64,000 nucleotides of DNA from Sphingomonas sp. AX6 (GTDB lineage: Bacteria > Pseudomonadota > Alphaproteobacteria > Sphingomonadales > Sphingomonadaceae), in NCBI RefSeq assembly GCF_902506605.1, contig NZ_LR733979.1:1499712-1563711 (forward strand), given 5' to 3'. This document shows, piece by piece, positions 9,864 through 56,156 of this stretch. Both the position numbers and the translations under genes were made by a program. Under the pieces are notes generated by a model that saw nothing but the letters and a program-made list of their open reading frames with translations, was not told the origin of the DNA and made no database searches. The stretch's first letter is position 1, and the number at the start of each line of letters is the position of its first letter.

Positions 9864-9889
9864 AACGTCACGAGACGACGAACGGTTCC
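9864..9889 (-). promoter_or_regulatory. EcfG-type general stress promoter
   Basis: On the minus strand GGAAC (9889-9885), a 17-base spacer, then CGTT (9867-9864). This matches the GGAAC-N16/17-CGTT consensus established for sphingomonad and other alphaproteobacterial EcfG sigma factors. The expected start is about 8 bases further, leaving an untranslated leader of about 80 bases before the Arg-rich lipoprotein ATG at 9776. Confidence 0.75.
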
Positions 9890-41902: not shown

Positions 41903-42999
41903 GCAGCCAGATGCAGTTCTTCCCGTCGCGGACCATCGCCTGGTACATGGCCAAGATGTTCGTGATCCGGACCTTTGCCATCATGTCGGGGCTCGTCCTG
42001 ATCCTCCAGACGCTCGACCTGCTGGCGGAAAGCGGGCGTATTCTTGCGTTCGACGGCAACGGCCAGGCGGAGGTCTGGCGTTACGTGTCGCTGCGCACGC
42101 CGCAGATCATCGAACAGTTTCTGCCGTTTTCGGTGCTGCTGGCGACCATCATCACGCTGACGACGCTCAACCAGAACAGCGAAGTCATCTCCATGAAGGC
42201 GGGCGGTCTGTCGGCGCACCAGATCCTTGCGCCACTGATCCTCGCCAGTTTCGCGGTCGCGGCGATTTCCTTCGGCTTCAACGACCGCATCGTTGCGCGC
42301 GCGACCGCCACGCTCCAACAATGGGAAGCGGTCGATTTCGGGCCGCTACCCATCGATCGCGGCGACCGCGCCAATATCTGGGTGCGCGAGCGCGACAACC
42401 TGATCCAGGTAAAACAGTTGCGCGGGCGCGGCGACGCCGCCGAATTGGGCGGCATCACCATCTATGAGCGCGACGGCGGCGTGCTGCGCTCGGTGGTCAC
42501 CGGATCGACCGGCGCGCGCGACGGCGATGGCTGGCGGATGGAAGGCGCACGCCGGTTCGACGTCCAGTCCGGCGGGGTGACCGAATTGGGCAGCGTGCGG
42601 TTCGCGCCCGGCGTGCGCCCGGACCAGTTCACGCTCGCCAGCGTCAATGCCGACGGGCTTTCGTTCGGCGCGCTGAATGCGGCGATCGACGATCTGGAAG
42701 CCGCCGGACGCCCCACCCAGGCGCTGAAAGGCGCGCTGTGGCACAAGCTGTCCGGGCCGCTCTCGTCCATCCTCATGCCCCTCCTCGGCGCGGTCGCGGC
42801 GTTCGGCGTCGCACGGTCGGGCAAGCTTTTCTGGCGTGCGGTTATTGGAATGGGGCTCGGCTTTGCCTATTTCGTGGCCGACAACTTCGCGCTGGCGATG
42901 GGGAACCTTGGGGCATACCCGCCGTTCCTCGCCGCCTGGGCACCGTTTTTGCTGTTCGCGATGATCGGCGAAGCGGTTCTGGTCCGGACCGAGGAATAG
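41899..42999 (+). CDS. lptG: Lpt permease subunit LptG
   Basis: 366 residues, six membrane helices and a central periplasmic domain (about 145-260). FPSRTIAWYMAKMFVIRTFAIM, LTTLNQNSEVISMKAGGLS and the C-terminal GVARSGKLFWRAVIGMGLGFAYF are typical LptG features. The ATG overlaps lptF (ATGA). Partner of LptF; LptB, LptC, LptA and LptD are not in the window. Confidence 0.93.
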   Translation: MSSQMQFFPSRTIAWYMAKMFVIRTFAIMSGLVLILQTLDLLAESGRILAFDGNGQAEVWRYVSLRTPQIIEQFLPFSVLLATIITLTTLNQNSEVISMKAGGLSAHQILAPLILASFAVAAISFGFNDRIVARATATLQQWEAVDFGPLPIDRGDRANIWVRERDNLIQVKQLRGRGDAAELGGITIYERDGGVLRSVVTGSTGARDGDGWRMEGARRFDVQSGGVTELGSVRFAPGVRPDQFTLASVNADGLSFGALNAAIDDLEAAGRPTQALKGALWHKLSGPLSSILMPLLGAVAAFGVARSGKLFWRAVIGMGLGFAYFVADNFALAMGNLGAYPPFLAAWAPFLLFAMIGEAVLVRTEE

Positions 43000-46886: not shown

Positions 46887-48047
46887 TTATTTTTCGGGGC
46901 CACCCATGCCGGCGGCATTGCGGCTCTTGAGCGCGCGATCCTGCATTGCCACGAGCTGGTCGCCCGCCTGGATATAGGGGGTGGGATTGACTGCGCGACC
47001 GTCGATGCGGACTTCGTAATGAAGGTGCGGGCCGGTCGAGCGACCGGTCGAACCCATCAGCCCGATCAACTGACCGCGGCGAACGCGGGTGTTGGCATCG
47101 ACCAGCATCTTCGACAGATGCGCGTAGCGGGTCTGAATGCCCTTGCCGTGGTTGACTTCGACCAGCAGGCCATAGGCGCCTGCGCGCTGCGAGCGCGACA
47201 CGATGCCGTCTGCGGTTGCGTAAATGGGGGTGCCAACCGGACCTGGAATGTCGAGTCCCGCGTGCATCGCCTGGGTGCCGCGGAACGGATCGCTGCGCAC
47301 ACCGAAGCTGCTGGTCAGGCGCATTTCGGCGACCGGCTGCATCGACGGGATCGCGATTGCCGCTTCTTCCAGCGAATCGAGCCGCTTCCAGCTCATCACC
47401 AGCGAACGGAATTGGGCGTCGGCCGATGCGTCAGCGGCGTTGTTTTCGTTCACTTCCTCAAGCGGACCACCCATTGCTGCCTGCGATGCGATCCGGTTCG
47501 GGGTAAGCCCCATCCGGCGCAATTCGCGAGCGGTCTCGGCATAGCGCGCCTGAAGCGCGGCATTGGCCTTCACCACCATCGCCATCTGACCGGCTTCGGC
47601 CCGGCGCAGCGGTGCAAGGATTTCGGCAGTCTGGGCGTCGATCTTGCCCGATGCGGTCAGCGCGGCTAGATCGAAATCGGCCGGATCGCCTTCTCCCGCC
47701 ATCGCGGCGACGATCAGCGCCTGGCGCTGTTCCAGCAATTTGGCGTGTTCGGCAGCAGCCGTGCGCACCTTGGCGACATCGGCCTGCATCTCGGCGACTT
47801 CGCGCTCCATCTCGGCGAGCTGCGCGTCGCTGGTGCCGATCGCGGCACCCGATGCGGCCTGCGTCACGCCATAGGCCGAGAAGCACAGGGTCACGGCAGC
47901 GACCCCCGCCATCAATGCCTGGGCACGGCCACCGACGCTGAATTCACGCAATTCGCGCCCATCGTTGAAGATGAAATCCCTGGAGGTGAAAAGCGAACGG
48001 AACTTTTGAAGCCCCGTCGTCGTTAGGCTGTTTACGGTTGCGATCAT
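46887..48047 (-). CDS. M23 family metallopeptidase (LytM/murein hydrolase regulator type)
   Basis: 386 residues. One membrane segment (VAAVTLCFSAYGVTQAA, about 50-70), a coiled-coil of about 90 residues (MEREVAEMQADVAKVR to EILAPL), and a C-terminal LytM domain (SSFGVRSDPFRGTQAMHAGLDI, GLLVEVNHGKGIQTRYAHL, GRSTGPHLHYEVRIDG) with zinc-binding His/Asp. The HGKGIQTRYAHL and HLHYE residues are those of active endopeptidases, so it probably cuts peptidoglycan. GGGGATCA precedes the ATG. Coiled-coil plus LytM is the EnvC/DipM arrangement. Confidence 0.92.
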   Translation of the reverse strand: MIATVNSLTTTGLQKFRSLFTSRDFIFNDGRELREFSVGGRAQALMAGVAAVTLCFSAYGVTQAASGAAIGTSDAQLAEMEREVAEMQADVAKVRTAAAEHAKLLEQRQALIVAAMAGEGDPADFDLAALTASGKIDAQTAEILAPLRRAEAGQMAMVVKANAALQARYAETARELRRMGLTPNRIASQAAMGGPLEEVNENNAADASADAQFRSLVMSWKRLDSLEEAAIAIPSMQPVAEMRLTSSFGVRSDPFRGTQAMHAGLDIPGPVGTPIYATADGIVSRSQRAGAYGLLVEVNHGKGIQTRYAHLSKMLVDANTRVRRGQLIGLMGSTGRSTGPHLHYEVRIDGRAVNPTPYIQAGDQLVAMQDRALKSRNAAGMGGPEK

Positions 48048-52000: not shown

Positions 52001-52639
52001 TCACCGTCCGCGGCTGAGCTCGTCCACTTCGTCCATGATGGTATCGAGCGTCGATCGATCCGGATCCTGCTTGTGCAACCGCCTCGATTCGAGCTGGCCG
52101 TCGCTTAGCAACCCCTCCAGCGCGACACGACCGCGCGCCACCCGGCTCTTGATCGTGCCAACGGCGACACCACAGATTTCTGCGGCTTCTTCATATGCGA
52201 AGCCGCCCGCGCCGACCAAAATCAGCGCCTCGCGCTGCGGTTGCGGCAGATGCAGCAAGGCGCGCTGCATGTCCGACAATTCGACATGACGATCCTGGCT
52301 GGCCGGTGCCGCCAGAATGCGGTCCGCCACCAGATCGTCCCACTCGCCGCGGAACCGCGAACGCCGCATCTGCGACAGGAACAGGTTGCGCAGAATGATG
52401 AAGGTCCAGGCGCGCATATTCGTGCCCGCCTGAAACCGCTGACGCGCGGCCCATGCCTTGAGGAGCGTTTCCTGCACCAGATCGTCGGCTAGGTCGCGAT
52501 TGCCCGATAGCGAACGCCCGAAAGCCCGCAGATGCGGGATCACCTGGGCAAGCTGGGTTTTGAAGTCATCATCGGAAAGCGGGACATGCTCCACCCGTTC
52601 CACGGGTTCGCCGTCTTCGTCATGTTCGGGGTCGGTCAT
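52001..52639 (-). CDS. ecfG: General stress sigma factor EcfG
   Basis: 212 residues. ECF sigma factor of the EcfG (ECF15) group. Region 2 (LAQVIPHLRAFGRSLSGNRDLADDLVQETLLKAW, MRAWTFIILRNLFLSQMRRSR) and region 4 (LPQPQREALILVGAGGFAYEEAAEICGVAVGTIKSRVARGR) are complete. Held inactive by NepR and freed when phospho-PhyR binds NepR. Here it lies on the same strand as phyR and a small membrane gene, not in an operon with nepR. No EcfG promoter was seen directly before it. Confidence 0.95.
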   Translation of the reverse strand: MTDPEHDEDGEPVERVEHVPLSDDDFKTQLAQVIPHLRAFGRSLSGNRDLADDLVQETLLKAWAARQRFQAGTNMRAWTFIILRNLFLSQMRRSRFRGEWDDLVADRILAAPASQDRHVELSDMQRALLHLPQPQREALILVGAGGFAYEEAAEICGVAVGTIKSRVARGRVALEGLLSDGQLESRRLHKQDPDRSTLDTIMDEVDELSRGR

Positions 52640-52709
52640 CGAATTCCGATCGGGCGCAAAGGCGGATGGCGAACCATCCGCCGTACGTAACGCCTGAAGT
52701 GCGGGGTTG

Positions 52710-52844
52710 CTAGAGATAGGTGAGTATGACGAAGACGATAATCACCAGCACCAGCGATACGGGAAGGATGACGCGCGTCATGTGCGGAGTCGCCCCCGCA
52801 CGTGCACGCTCGCCATCGATATGGGTTTCTTTGTCGTCAGCCAT
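52710..52844 (-). CDS. 44-residue membrane protein between phyR and ecfG
   Basis: MADDKETHIDGERARAGATP then MTRVILPVSLVLVIIVFVILTYL. A polar N-terminus and one C-terminal membrane helix. It lies on the minus strand in the phyR-ecfG stretch with 70-base gap to ecfG and 48 bases after phyR, so is likely co-transcribed with them. Unrelated to known GSR parts; a tail-anchored protein. The call rests on frame, position and membrane helix only. Confidence 0.65.
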   Translation of the reverse strand: MADDKETHIDGERARAGATPHMTRVILPVSLVLVIIVFVILTYL

Positions 52845-52892
52845 ACCCACTCAACCCCCGAAAATCGTTTTGGGTCCGTCCCGATCCGCGAA

Positions 52893-53693
52893 TTAATTGA
52901 CCGGAACGGTCGCCTGATCGAAAAACAGCGCCTGGCTGATCGCCGCCTTCACGGTCGAACGCTGGAACGGCTTGGTGATCAGGAAGGTCGGCTCGGGCCG
53001 CTCGCCGGTCAAAAGACGCTCCGGGAACGCCGTGATGAAAATCACGGGCACGTTGAATTCGGCCAGGATGTCCTTGACCGCGTCGATCCCCGACGAATCA
53101 TCGGCAAGCTGAATGTCGGCCAGCACCAGACCAGGCCGATCCTCCATCGCCAATGCCACCGCTTCGTCGCGGGTGACCGCGACACCGGTCACATCATGGC
53201 CCAGATCGCGGACGATCTGTTCGATGTCCATCGCGATGATCGGTTCATCCTCGATGATCAGCACGCGGGCGCGGGTCTGGCGATCGATTTCCGACAATGC
53301 GTCGGATACCAGTTCGTCGACTTCGCCGGTCGAAGCACCGATCAGATAGGCGGTGTCCTCGGTGGTGAAGCCTTCCATCGCGGTCAGCAGCAGCGCCTGG
53401 CGCGAGATCGGGGCGATACGGGCAAGCCGGGCACGAGCGATCGCCTCGTTATCATCGTCCTCGCCGGTATCGACGTCACCGTCGTCGACATGCGTAGACG
53501 ACCAGATGACCTGAAACGTGCGGTACAGACCCAACCGCGGGTCGACATCGCGCGGAAATTCTTCGGGCGCTGCGACGATCGCCTCGAGCGTGGCGCGAAC
53601 GTAGCGATCGCCCTCGGTCTGGCTGCCAGTGAGCGCGCGGCCGTAGCGACGCAGGAAGGGAAGATGCGGCGCGAGCTGCTGTCCAAGCGACAT
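52893..53693 (-). CDS. phyR: PhyR, anti-anti-sigma response regulator
   Basis: 266 residues. An N-terminal EcfG-like sigma domain (about 1-130, MSLGQQLAPHLPFLRRYGRAL, EGFTTEDTAYLIGASTGEVDEL) is fused to a receiver with acidic pocket (IIEDEP) and Asp193 (LVLADIQLADDSSGID), Thr near 224 and Lys near 244. Phosphorylated PhyR uses the sigma-like domain to titrate NepR away from EcfG (established in Methylobacterium and Sphingomonas). ATG 53693 matches the family start; the longer frame from 53729 is possible. Diverges from nepR. Confidence 0.96.
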   Translation of the reverse strand: MSLGQQLAPHLPFLRRYGRALTGSQTEGDRYVRATLEAIVAAPEEFPRDVDPRLGLYRTFQVIWSSTHVDDGDVDTGEDDDNEAIARARLARIAPISRQALLLTAMEGFTTEDTAYLIGASTGEVDELVSDALSEIDRQTRARVLIIEDEPIIAMDIEQIVRDLGHDVTGVAVTRDEAVALAMEDRPGLVLADIQLADDSSGIDAVKDILAEFNVPVIFITAFPERLLTGERPEPTFLITKPFQRSTVKAAISQALFFDQATVPVN

Positions 53694-53806
53694 GGGCGAA
53701 ATAAACTCCTTCGAAGCGAACCGCGTCATTTGAGAAGCGATTCAACCATTTGCAATCCTGATTCGGCACGCATCGAAGTTTGCCCCCCGATTTTTGTACC
53801 GAGCAT

Positions 53807-53831
53807 GGAACCAACGAAGCGATCTTTGGTT
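53807..53831 (+). promoter_or_regulatory. Candidate EcfG promoter of nepR-phyP
   Basis: GGAAC at 53807-53811, 17-base spacer, GTT at 53829-53831 (GGTTTC). Matches GGAAC-N17-GTT with G in place of the usual C before GTT. The expected start near 53839 leaves a leader of about 95 bases to the nepR GTG. It would give positive feedback of the stress sigma factor on its own inhibitor, as reported for nepR-ecfG in other alphaproteobacteria. Confidence 0.6.
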
Positions 53832-53932
53832 TCATGATTTCTGCGTGGCGTGTAACTGCCGCCAAAATCGCCCGTTTCGGTGGCGAGATGATTTTTAGTG
53901 TCCCGGATTATGCGGGTTCTAAGGGGGACGTT

Positions 53933-54145
53933 GTGCAGTCGGGAAACGGTACAGAAAATGAACCCGGTCGAACGGACGAAATGAACACTTCAGATTCCAA
54001 GACTTCAAATGCTCCATCGCCCAAGTCCGGCCTACGCAATCCCAAGGAGAAATCCGTGGGTGACGCGTTGCGCGCGGTCTATCACGATGCGGTCGACGAA
54101 CAGGTGCCGGATTCGATGCTCGACCTGTTGAACAAACTCGGCTGA
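53933..54145 (+). CDS. nepR: NepR anti-sigma factor
   Basis: 70 residues. The NepR core PKEKSVGDALRAVYHDAVDEQVPDSMLDLLNKL has the two helices that hold EcfG or the PhyR sigma-like domain; the N-terminal 35 residues are a disordered Asn/Ser/Thr/Glu region. GTG 53933 is chosen because AAGGGGGACGTT precedes it; ATG 53981 would give 54 residues. Ten bases before phyP. Confidence 0.93.
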   Translation: MQSGNGTENEPGRTDEMNTSDSKTSNAPSPKSGLRNPKEKSVGDALRAVYHDAVDEQVPDSMLDLLNKLG

Positions 54146-54155
54146 CATTCCTCGC

Positions 54156-55742
54156 ATGACCGATCAGCCCCTACCCGGCAGCGGGGCCGACCGCCGCCCG
54201 GCGGCTTTGTTCGTCAACCTTCCGACCGGCGCAAAGCTCTTCGCGATCCTCTCGGTCGCACTGCTGCCCTTCGCCATCATCGCGTTTTTCGCTTCGGTCC
54301 AGACAACGCGCATCGCCGATCAGGAAACGCGTTCGCGGTTGCGGGTTGCTGCGACCGAAAGCGCCCGCGCGCTGTCGATCGAATTGCTGGGCGATATCGG
54401 GGCGCTGCGCGTCGCGCTCGATACGCTGGGCAGCGATCCCGCCAATGCCCCCGGTTGTGCGCGATTGCAGGGCGTGTTCGCGCAGCAATTCGCATCGGGC
54501 ACGCGTTTCGCGGTCGAGACGATCGACGGACGATTGGTCTGCGGCACGCGGATCGATGTTCCCGAAGTCGAGACGCCACCCGTGCCGGGCAATCCCGCAG
54601 CGACGATCATCGAGGATCGGGGCTTGGCGCTCCGCATCGTCAACGCGCGTGGCACCGCGACTGCGACCGCGTTCTTTCCATCGAGCTTTCTGGCCGAAAT
54701 CGCGCGTCCGACCGAGTTCGCCCCGCCCTATTCCGCGCGACTGACGCGAGGCGGCGATTCGCTGACCTTGCGCGAATTGACCGAGCGCACCGCGCTCGAC
54801 CGGCGCGAGCGGCTGGTGGTCGATCTCGAATTCGAAGGACTGGCACTCGACGTATCGGTACGAGCTGCGCCGATCACCCCGCCGATCTTGGTGACGATGC
54901 TGCTACCGCTCATCATGTGGTTCGCCGCCGCGGCGATATCGTGGTTCGTCGTGGATCGCCTGTTGATCCGTCCCCTGCGCCGCTTGCGCACGACCGTCGG
55001 CAGCTATGTGCCGGGCACGACAATGCCCGAACTCGCCGCGATGCGCGCCCCCGCGCAGGAAATTCGCGAATTGGGCGCGACCTTTGGCCGGCTGACCGAA
55101 ACCGTCGCCGAACACGAGGAGAATCTGGCGCAGGGACTGGTCCGCCAGACCCGGCTGACTCGCGAAGTCCATCACCGGGTGAAGAACAATCTTCAGGTCA
55201 TCGCCAGCCTGATCAATTTCCATTCGCGCGGGGCCGAAACGCGCGAGGCGGCACAAGCCTATGCGTCGATCCAGCGGCGCGTCGATGCGCTCGCGGTCGT
55301 CCACCGTTACCATTATGCGGAAATGGAGGAGAATCGCGGGATCGAACTACGATCCGTGCTGGGCGAGCTGGCGTCTAACATCCGCGCCACCGCCGCCGAC
55401 ATCGACGGCGCACCGACGATCACGCTCGATCTCGATCCGATGATGGTCAGCCAGGACGTCGCGGTCGCCGCAGCATTCCTGATGACGGAGATCATCGAAC
55501 TGGCGATGGCCGCGCGCAATCCGACCTCGATTTCGATCTCGCTGAAACCGCACAGCAGCGATAGCGGCGTCGCGCTGCTGAGGGCGTCGTCGCCGTCGCT
55601 GGTGTCCAGTCCGGAATTCGATCATCTCAGCGCGTCGCGCTACGGCAGGGTGATCGGCGGCCTGGCCCGCCAGTTGCGCGCCCCGCTCCAATATGATCCG
55701 CTCGTCGGCAGCTACGACATCGCGATTTCGGTGATTGGTTGA
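54156..55742 (+). CDS. phyP: PhyP-like HisKA_2 histidine kinase family protein with degenerate ATPase domain
   Basis: 528 residues. Membrane helices near 27-48 and 245-265 flank a periplasmic sensor region; a HAMP-like linker and then HisKA_2 with REVHHRVKNNLQVIASLINFHSR (His339/His340). In the C-terminal ATPase domain the N-box is replaced (EIIELAMAARN in place of the usual ELVTNALKHA) and the G-box Asp-x-Gly region is lost (LLRASSPSLVSS), so ATP binding is unlikely. In Sphingomonas Fr1 the kinase-like PhyP encoded at the GSR locus is a negative regulator of PhyR, thought to act as its phosphatase, which the degeneration seen here would suit. Follows nepR by 10 bases. Confidence 0.88.
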   Translation: MTDQPLPGSGADRRPAALFVNLPTGAKLFAILSVALLPFAIIAFFASVQTTRIADQETRSRLRVAATESARALSIELLGDIGALRVALDTLGSDPANAPGCARLQGVFAQQFASGTRFAVETIDGRLVCGTRIDVPEVETPPVPGNPAATIIEDRGLALRIVNARGTATATAFFPSSFLAEIARPTEFAPPYSARLTRGGDSLTLRELTERTALDRRERLVVDLEFEGLALDVSVRAAPITPPILVTMLLPLIMWFAAAAISWFVVDRLLIRPLRRLRTTVGSYVPGTTMPELAAMRAPAQEIRELGATFGRLTETVAEHEENLAQGLVRQTRLTREVHHRVKNNLQVIASLINFHSRGAETREAAQAYASIQRRVDALAVVHRYHYAEMEENRGIELRSVLGELASNIRATAADIDGAPTITLDLDPMMVSQDVAVAAAFLMTEIIELAMAARNPTSISISLKPHSSDSGVALLRASSPSLVSSPEFDHLSASRYGRVIGGLARQLRAPLQYDPLVGSYDIAISVIG

Positions 55743-55792: not shown

Positions 55793-55817
55793 GGAACCCG
55801 CATTGACATGCGTCGTT
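55793..55817 (+). promoter_or_regulatory. Perfect EcfG promoter of the GsrN-like sRNA
   Basis: GGAAC (55793-55797), 16-base spacer, CGTT (55814-55817). Exact match to the GGAAC-N16-CGTT consensus of EcfG-type sigma factors. The transcription start should be near 55824-55826, immediately before the first stem-loop of the sRNA. Confidence 0.85.
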
Positions 55818-55823
55818 CTACAC

Positions 55824-55928
55824 TTCGGATAGCGACTCTTTGCCCCCCCGCTCTCGCTATCCAAGACATAGGCCCGAAACCGTCCACCCTCCCCCCCCCG
55901 GTGACGTTTTCGGGCCTTAATCTTTTTC
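55824..55928 (+). ncRNA. gsrN: Candidate GsrN-type stress small RNA
   Basis: About 105 bases. Stem-loop 1: GGATAGCGA (55827-55835) pairs perfectly with TCGCTATCC (55854-55862) around an 18-base loop containing seven C. Stem-loop 2: AGGCCCGAAACCGTC (55870-55884) pairs with GACGTTTTCGGGCCT (55903-55917), one mismatch, around an 18-base loop with nine C, then TTAATCTTTTT as the terminator tail. The C-rich loops are complementary to ribosome-binding sites. GsrN of Caulobacter is an EcfG-controlled sRNA with a C-rich 5' loop that base-pairs with the katG leader; size, promoter, loop and position beside the GSR genes agree. Homology itself is inferred from architecture only. Confidence 0.78.
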
Positions 55929-55973: not shown

Positions 55974-55998
55974 GGAACGACTGGTTCAGTGGCGCATT
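55974..55998 (+). promoter_or_regulatory. Weak EcfG-like promoter before the entericidin gene
   Basis: GGAAC (55974-55978), 16-base spacer, CATT (55995-55998), one mismatch to CGTT. The expected start near 56006 would leave a leader of about 25 bases. Entericidins are often reported in alphaproteobacterial GSR regulons, so this is plausible. Confidence 0.4.
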
Positions 55999-56030
55999 GA
56001 CGCAGTCTAGTCACTTCGAAAGGGATTTTT

Positions 56031-56156
56031 ATGCGTAAGATGATCGGTATCGCCCTCGCCGCCAGCGCATTCCTGGTTAGCGCGTGCAACACGGTCGAAG
56101 GCATCGGCCGCGACGTCCAGTCGGCCGGTGACACGGTCGAGGATGCTGCTAACTAA
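56031..56156 (+). CDS. Entericidin A/B family lipoprotein
   Basis: 41 residues. MRKMIGIALAASAFLVSAC is a lipoprotein signal (Cys19), followed by NTVEGIGRDVQSAGDTVEDAAN, the entericidin core. AAAGGGA precedes the ATG. Small outer-envelope lipoproteins of this family are stress-induced, and this one lies directly behind the GSR sRNA. Confidence 0.92.
   Translation: MRKMIGIALAASAFLVSACNTVEGIGRDVQSAGDTVEDAAN

Follow-up and report, generated by a model that had tools for sequence, protein, structure and literature searches.

A small RNA gene was identified beside the master regulators of general stress in Sphingomonas sp. AX6, directly downstream of phyT. It has an EcfG-type promoter of its own, folds into two hairpins that both carry a C-rich loop, keeps its position in the gene order of its relatives, and has been under selection in both loops. 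The gene is previously undescribed: Rfam holds no match to it, the text of the paper on the EcfG regulon of S. melonis Fr1 mentions no sRNA, small RNA or non-coding RNA (PMC6599016), and the terms 'sRNA' and 'small RNA' are absent from the Sphingopyxis granuli regulon paper. Stress almost certainly induces the RNA, and we consider it quite probable that it is a stand-alone, EcfG-controlled, trans-acting sRNA of the sphingomonad general stress response that works like GsrN of Caulobacter crescentus. Being located inside the general stress locus and near-universal in the genus, it would be a probable post-transcriptional arm of that response.

Promoter and genomic context

The promoter consists of GGAAC (55793-55797), a spacer of 16 nt and CGTT (55814-55817), as read directly from the letters. 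Within the window (the whole 64-kb stretch of DNA that was analysed) such a box occurs four times against 1.5 expected, which is not significant by itself (11 of 100 shuffles). Its significance follows from its conservation: GGAAC-N16-NGTT is found at the same place in all 30 genus homologs, with spacer letters that are free to vary, and GGAAC-N16/17-NGTT precedes 42 of 43 covariance-model members, which were collected without use of the promoter in the search, compared to 93 of 8600 random positions (1.1%). In these members the GTT sits almost always 4 nt ahead of model position 1. The proposal, made in a preliminary description of the locus, of a perfect EcfG promoter directly after phyP is thereby borne out; the product of phyP, a phosphotransferase, is now named PhyT (PMC5898713). 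The EcfG motif reported for S. melonis Fr1 reads GGAAC-N17-20-GTT by its authors' own counting (PMC6599016). The three other exact EcfG-type boxes in the window are located at 9864-9889 (minus strand), 42902-42926 (plus) and 47999-48024 (plus). The likeliest extent of the sRNA is from about 55822-55825, a start site placed by promoter spacing, to about 55927; its expression and its dependence on EcfG we infer from the sequence.

Downstream of the sRNA a small lipoprotein of the entericidin type is encoded, and a GGAAC-N16-CATT box was found in front of it in 94 of 117 relatives (control: about 4%). Since the entericidin gene has its own promoter, the sRNA and the entericidin are separate units. 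The order phyT-sRNA-entericidin-tatC was observed in 78 of 120 named genomes, and none of the 120 lacks all of these neighbours. It also matches the order in S. melonis Fr1, where #1442 ('predicted small secreted protein'), #1443 (PhyT) and #1444 (NepR) follow each other (PMC6599016). Gene #1442 is preceded by the box GGAACGAATGGCCCGACCGATCATT and its expression drops by log2 4.7 without EcfG (PMC6599016). The conserved entericidin box matches that of the EcfG-dependent #1442, which shows CATT to be an accepted -10 element in this clade.

Features of the sRNA locus, with positions in the window
Feature	Position	Strand	Basis
Core general stress genes ecfG, phyR, nepR	52001..54145		Pfam
ecfG	52001-52639	-	Pfam Sigma70_r2/r4
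phyR	52893-53729	-	Pfam PhyR domains
nepR	within 53780-54145	+	Pfam NepR
phyT (formerly phyP), HisKA_2/HWE histidine phosphotransferase, directly upstream of the sRNA	54156..55742	+	Pfam HisKA_2, 2.3e-18
EcfG (general stress sigma factor) promoter, GGAAC-N16-CGTT	55793..55817	+	sequence and homologs
sRNA gene, about 104-105 nt	55822..55927	+	5' end placed by promoter spacing; fold; conservation
Hairpin 1, 9-bp stem and 18-nt loop with C7	55827..55862	+	covariation in 47 relatives
Hairpin 2 / intrinsic terminator, 14/15 bp and ACC/GGT extension, loop CTCCCCCCCCC	55870..55917	+	covariation
Entericidin promoter, EcfG-type, GGAAC-N16-CATT	55975..55999	+	conserved in relatives
Entericidin EcnA/B-type small lipoprotein, downstream neighbour	56031..56156	+	Pfam PF08085, 6.5e-9

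Structure, loop conservation and distribution

Between 55793 and 55927 the elements follow each other in the order promoter, hairpin 1, linker (55863-55869), terminator hairpin 2 and broken U-tract. The fold energy of 55824-55927 is -43 kcal/mol (z = -7.8; none of 200 shuffles was equally good), and the interval that was first proposed, 55793-55928, gives z = -8.4. In hairpin 1, GGATAGCGA (55827-55835) is perfectly paired with TCGCTATCC (55854-55862) over 9 bp around the 18-nt loop CTCTTTGCCCCCCCGCTC, which holds C7. This agrees with the preliminary description, as does the second stem, where 14 of 15 positions are paired (55870-55884 with 55903-55917; mismatch C55880 x T55907). The second loop is C-rich, as had been stated, but not 18 nt long: past one bulged base ACC/GGT pairs (55886-55888 with 55900-55902) reduce it to the 11 nt of CTCCCCCCCCC. 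Likewise, a U-tract is present in the tail after hairpin 2, TTAATCTTTTT, although it is interrupted and weak. The second hairpin serves also as the terminator.

The two stems are conserved with abundant compensatory changes, as the preliminary description had expected of relatives. In an alignment of 47 members 96.2% of the cells pair and two-sided changes occur at 26 of 29 pairs. All nine pairs of hairpin 1 have changed on both sides (99.1% of cells paired), and double changes were found at 17 of the 18 model pairs of hairpin 2. The number of double-change cells is 189; shuffles give 40.5, and sliding the partners gives 23-41. Fitting the alignment to the model makes it lean towards structure, yet the excess is very large and the individual changes are readable by eye.

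A different pattern was observed in the loops. The core of the hairpin 1 loop, GCCCCCCCGCTC, is nearly invariant, and the mean entropies of loops 1 and 2 are 0.44 and 0.55, compared to 0.99 for the hairpin 2 stem. A run of at least five C's is found in the hairpin 2 loop of 46 of the 47 members and in both loops of 45, with a C-tract in loop 2 that varies from 4 to 13 C's. In divergent genera the stem sequences have been completely replaced, and the two C-rich loops and the promoter remain. The terminator loop is therefore also under selection: the stem of hairpin 2 changes freely and its loop does not, and the C-run is kept in relatives, yet rare among the terminators of the same genome, where just three out of the 255 terminator-like hairpins counted over 1.26 Mb carry C5 in their loop, the sRNA being one of the three.

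A DNA search identified homologs in 197 of 201 genus genomes (179 of 180 among those of good quality). With covariance models made from a 30-member alignment (R1) and from the wider set of 47 members (R2), matches were obtained in 40 and 51, respectively, of the 96 genera sampled from the family, some of them weak, so that about half of the genera lack a match. Twenty genera without a model match were searched by tatC synteny, which yielded one divergent copy (g25); no copy was found beside tatC in the other 19. In class-wide searches with R1 and R2 (about 290 and 270 genomes) only scattered weak scores and no convincing relative were found; the best match (2.4e-6) has C-rich loops and lacks an EcfG box. 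The combination of EcfG box and C7 is rare in the class outside the sphingomonads, and the matches are unlike this sRNA. When 85,000 species genomes were scanned with a pattern, at least 120 stretches matched, and among the 80 matches listed each named record belongs to a sphingomonad or an unnamed bin. The suggestion of a distinctive sphingomonad version with paired C-rich loops is supported.

Searches of Rfam at gathering and relaxed thresholds (E up to 5) placed nothing over the sRNA; the sole weak matches (E 0.07-2; alpha-r35 and other alphaproteobacterial sRNAs) cover the neighbouring entericidin terminator. Two genomes have, besides the main copy, a second and divergent RNA with twin C-loops and an EcfG-type box (L116, 2001-2104; L260, 2001-2123), and the family thus seems to have paralogs. 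Weak model matches of 22-35 bits (L105, L108-L115), which lack an EcfG box, were taken as other terminators. One terminator hairpin, whose loop is of the CCCCUCCCCCUCCC type, recurs in L105, L109, L110 and L257 (around 2001-2091); it has no EcfG box and may be part of a different sRNA or leader of the C-rich kind in sphingomonads. An element from a genome in another family of the order (L111, 2001-2087) has two hairpins with CCCUCC and ACCCUCCCCCCCU loops, lacks an EcfG box, and could represent either a distant relative or an RNA of the cuckoo kind.

Targets and proposed mode of action

Target prediction covered 1.264 Mb (42% of the genome) and 935 genes with approximate gene calls. Complementarity of the loops at -35..+25 of the start codons was no better than in internal or upstream controls, in a test that would miss targets in few genes or sites outside this range; the suggested target prediction against leaders thus gave no support for pairing at translation starts. 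The exact complement of loop 1, GCGGGGGGGC, occurs at ten sites besides the sRNA itself, none of them clearly in a leader. The 8-mers that complement loop 2 show an enrichment in intergenic DNA, but most of these sites are not near a translation start, and some fall in palindromic repeats. Palindromic repeats CCCCTCCCGCAAGCGGGAGGGGA were also seen directly ahead of start codons (e.g. genome positions 1740234 and 1907296), with a G-rich arm that complements loop 2. A very abundant intergenic repeat, TTTCGAGCGAAGTCGAGAAA, was also seen, its 16-mers occurring in about 60-70 copies within the 1.26 Mb sampled. The katG gene, earlier proposed as a target, is not supported as a conserved one: a G5 tract is present in only three of 30 katG leaders of the genus, lacking in the other 27 and in the leader of the genome itself. 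With respect to feedback on the genes of the locus, almost no G5 tracts were found at their readable translation starts. These searches thus single out no target, and the results at translation starts and in katG leaders lend the pairing step no direct support.

We propose the following mode of action. Stress would free EcfG from NepR, and EcfG would then transcribe the sRNA from its GGAAC-N16-CGTT promoter. The transcript of about 104 nt is predicted to fold into two stable hairpins that expose the C-tracts of both loops, the second hairpin ending transcription. The most likely partners of the C-tracts would be G-rich stretches in several mRNAs, whose translation or stability would be altered by the pairing, in the way that GsrN acts on katG in Caulobacter and sX13 acts in Xanthomonas. 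Such pairing is expected since the anatomy resembles that of both RNAs; by this analogy the loops probably grip guanine-rich mRNA stretches, and both the pairing and the sign of the regulation we infer from it.

A rather unlikely variant is a clade-specific bivalent stress RNA, in which the terminator loop, too, would have become a C-tract and the two loops would jointly clamp two G-tracts of one mRNA or titrate a C-binding protein. Its mechanism would then differ from that of the single-seed GsrN. Equally doubtful is an RNA of the cuckoo/alpha-r14 type, which would act as an anti-Shine-Dalgarno RNA and silence many mRNAs by covering their ribosome-binding sites. The C-rich loops, the several hairpins with variable stems around constant loops and the stress context would fit such an RNA, as would the CCUCC that is found in loop 2 of 22 of the 47 members. 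In loop 1, however, CCUCC occurs in a single member, the motif CCUCCUCCC that is identical in each cuckoo loop is absent from all 47, no Rfam model matches, and there is no excess complementarity at translation starts. The general twin anti-Shine-Dalgarno RNA of the preliminary description was accordingly not supported.

An improbable alternative is a protein sponge or decoy, in which the C-rich loops titrate an RNA-binding protein under stress and no mRNA pairing takes place. Twin repeated motifs are typical of sponges, the C-tract is kept in both loops while loop 2 tolerates very different lengths, and no mRNA target signal emerged from the start, 8-mer and katG tests. We know, however, of no C-specific RNA-binding protein of such kind established in sphingomonads. 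Moreover, GsrN, the characterised EcfG-driven C-loop RNA, acts by pairing (PMC5869019).

The position between phyT and the entericidin gene and the terminator hairpin at the end might suggest a mere decorated terminator, belonging to the phyT 3' end or the entericidin 5' leader. This is very improbable given the conserved EcfG promoter at the 5' end of hairpin 1, the separate entericidin promoter downstream of the terminator, and the covariation at every pair of hairpin 1, which is no terminator. In addition, the second copy in L116 has its own EcfG-type box and no phyT, entericidin or tatC match adjoining it. Finally, the repeated occurrence of the promoter pattern in the window might speak for a mere coincidence of hairpins and promoter match, but this reading is already refuted by the near-universal presence in the genus, the covariation and the promoter conservation.

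Comparison with known C-rich-loop RNAs

GsrN (CCNA_R0081) is an RNA of about 100 nt that is transcribed by an EcfG-type sigma factor (sigma-T) from a consensus box, consists of a 5' hairpin with six C's in its loop and a 3' terminator hairpin, and is located near ecfG/nepR/phyR in most Caulobacteraceae (PMC5869019). Processing of GsrN leaves a stable 5' form of about 51-54 nt; the RNA protects against peroxide, and pairing of its C-rich loop with a G-tract in the katG leader has been demonstrated (PMC5869019). Set against this published description, the sphingomonad sRNA agrees in its EcfG box (by sequence, in all but one of the 43 members), its length, its 5' C-tract-loop hairpin and 3' terminator hairpin, and its location in the general stress locus with phyT directly upstream. 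It differs in that the terminator loop holds a second conserved C-tract and that the katG G-tract is not conserved in the genus. BLAST matches of GsrN are confined to the Caulobacteraceae, and no gsrN-like gene was reported in Erythrobacter litoralis, a relative of the sphingomonads (PMC5869019). The models R1 and R2 have no convincing relative outside the sphingomonads in the sampled genomes, GsrN being compared by description only. Membership of the GsrN family can therefore not be shown; of the earlier designation as GsrN-type, the box, architecture and location stand, and orthology to the Caulobacter RNA is no more than a possibility.

The cuckoo/alpha-r14 RNAs (NfeR1, SmelA075, CcsR1-4) share the logic of C-loops that cover ribosome-binding sites (PMC10746234, PMC3927594). 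They resemble the sRNA in having several C-rich-loop hairpins with variable stems and constant loops, in being alphaproteobacterial and, in many cases, in being stress-induced. The lack of the cuckoo motif and of any match to the alphaproteobacterial sRNA models of Rfam led us to reject membership; with alpha-r35 and the other alphaproteobacterial sRNAs of Rfam nothing is common beyond being sRNAs. Furthermore, the promoter of NfeR1 is of the RpoD type (PMC10746234), while that of the sRNA is of the EcfG type.

Among RNAs with more than one C-tract loop, sX13 of Xanthomonas comes closest: its three stems carry C-rich loops that target G-rich motifs close to translation starts, and pairing of the C-tract loops with G-rich mRNA stretches has been demonstrated (PMC3771888). 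In RNAs of the sX13 and RNAIII type the loop C-tracts are needed to repress mRNAs that have G-rich motifs close to their starts. In the sphingomonad sRNA, C-tracts are kept in both loops, and complementarity at starts is not enriched among the 935 genes. The sX13 RNA is gammaproteobacterial, lies at the polA locus and is not linked to EcfG; no homology is claimed.

EcfG-driven C-loop sRNAs thus recur in a third alphaproteobacterial lineage with no detectable sequence relationship, which reflects either deep divergence or convergence. With promoter, architecture and location as in GsrN, and with no conserved katG site, no demonstrable homology and no cuckoo motif, we therefore regard the RNA not as GsrN itself but as the representative of a GsrN-like, sphingomonad-specific family of twin-C-loop sRNAs.
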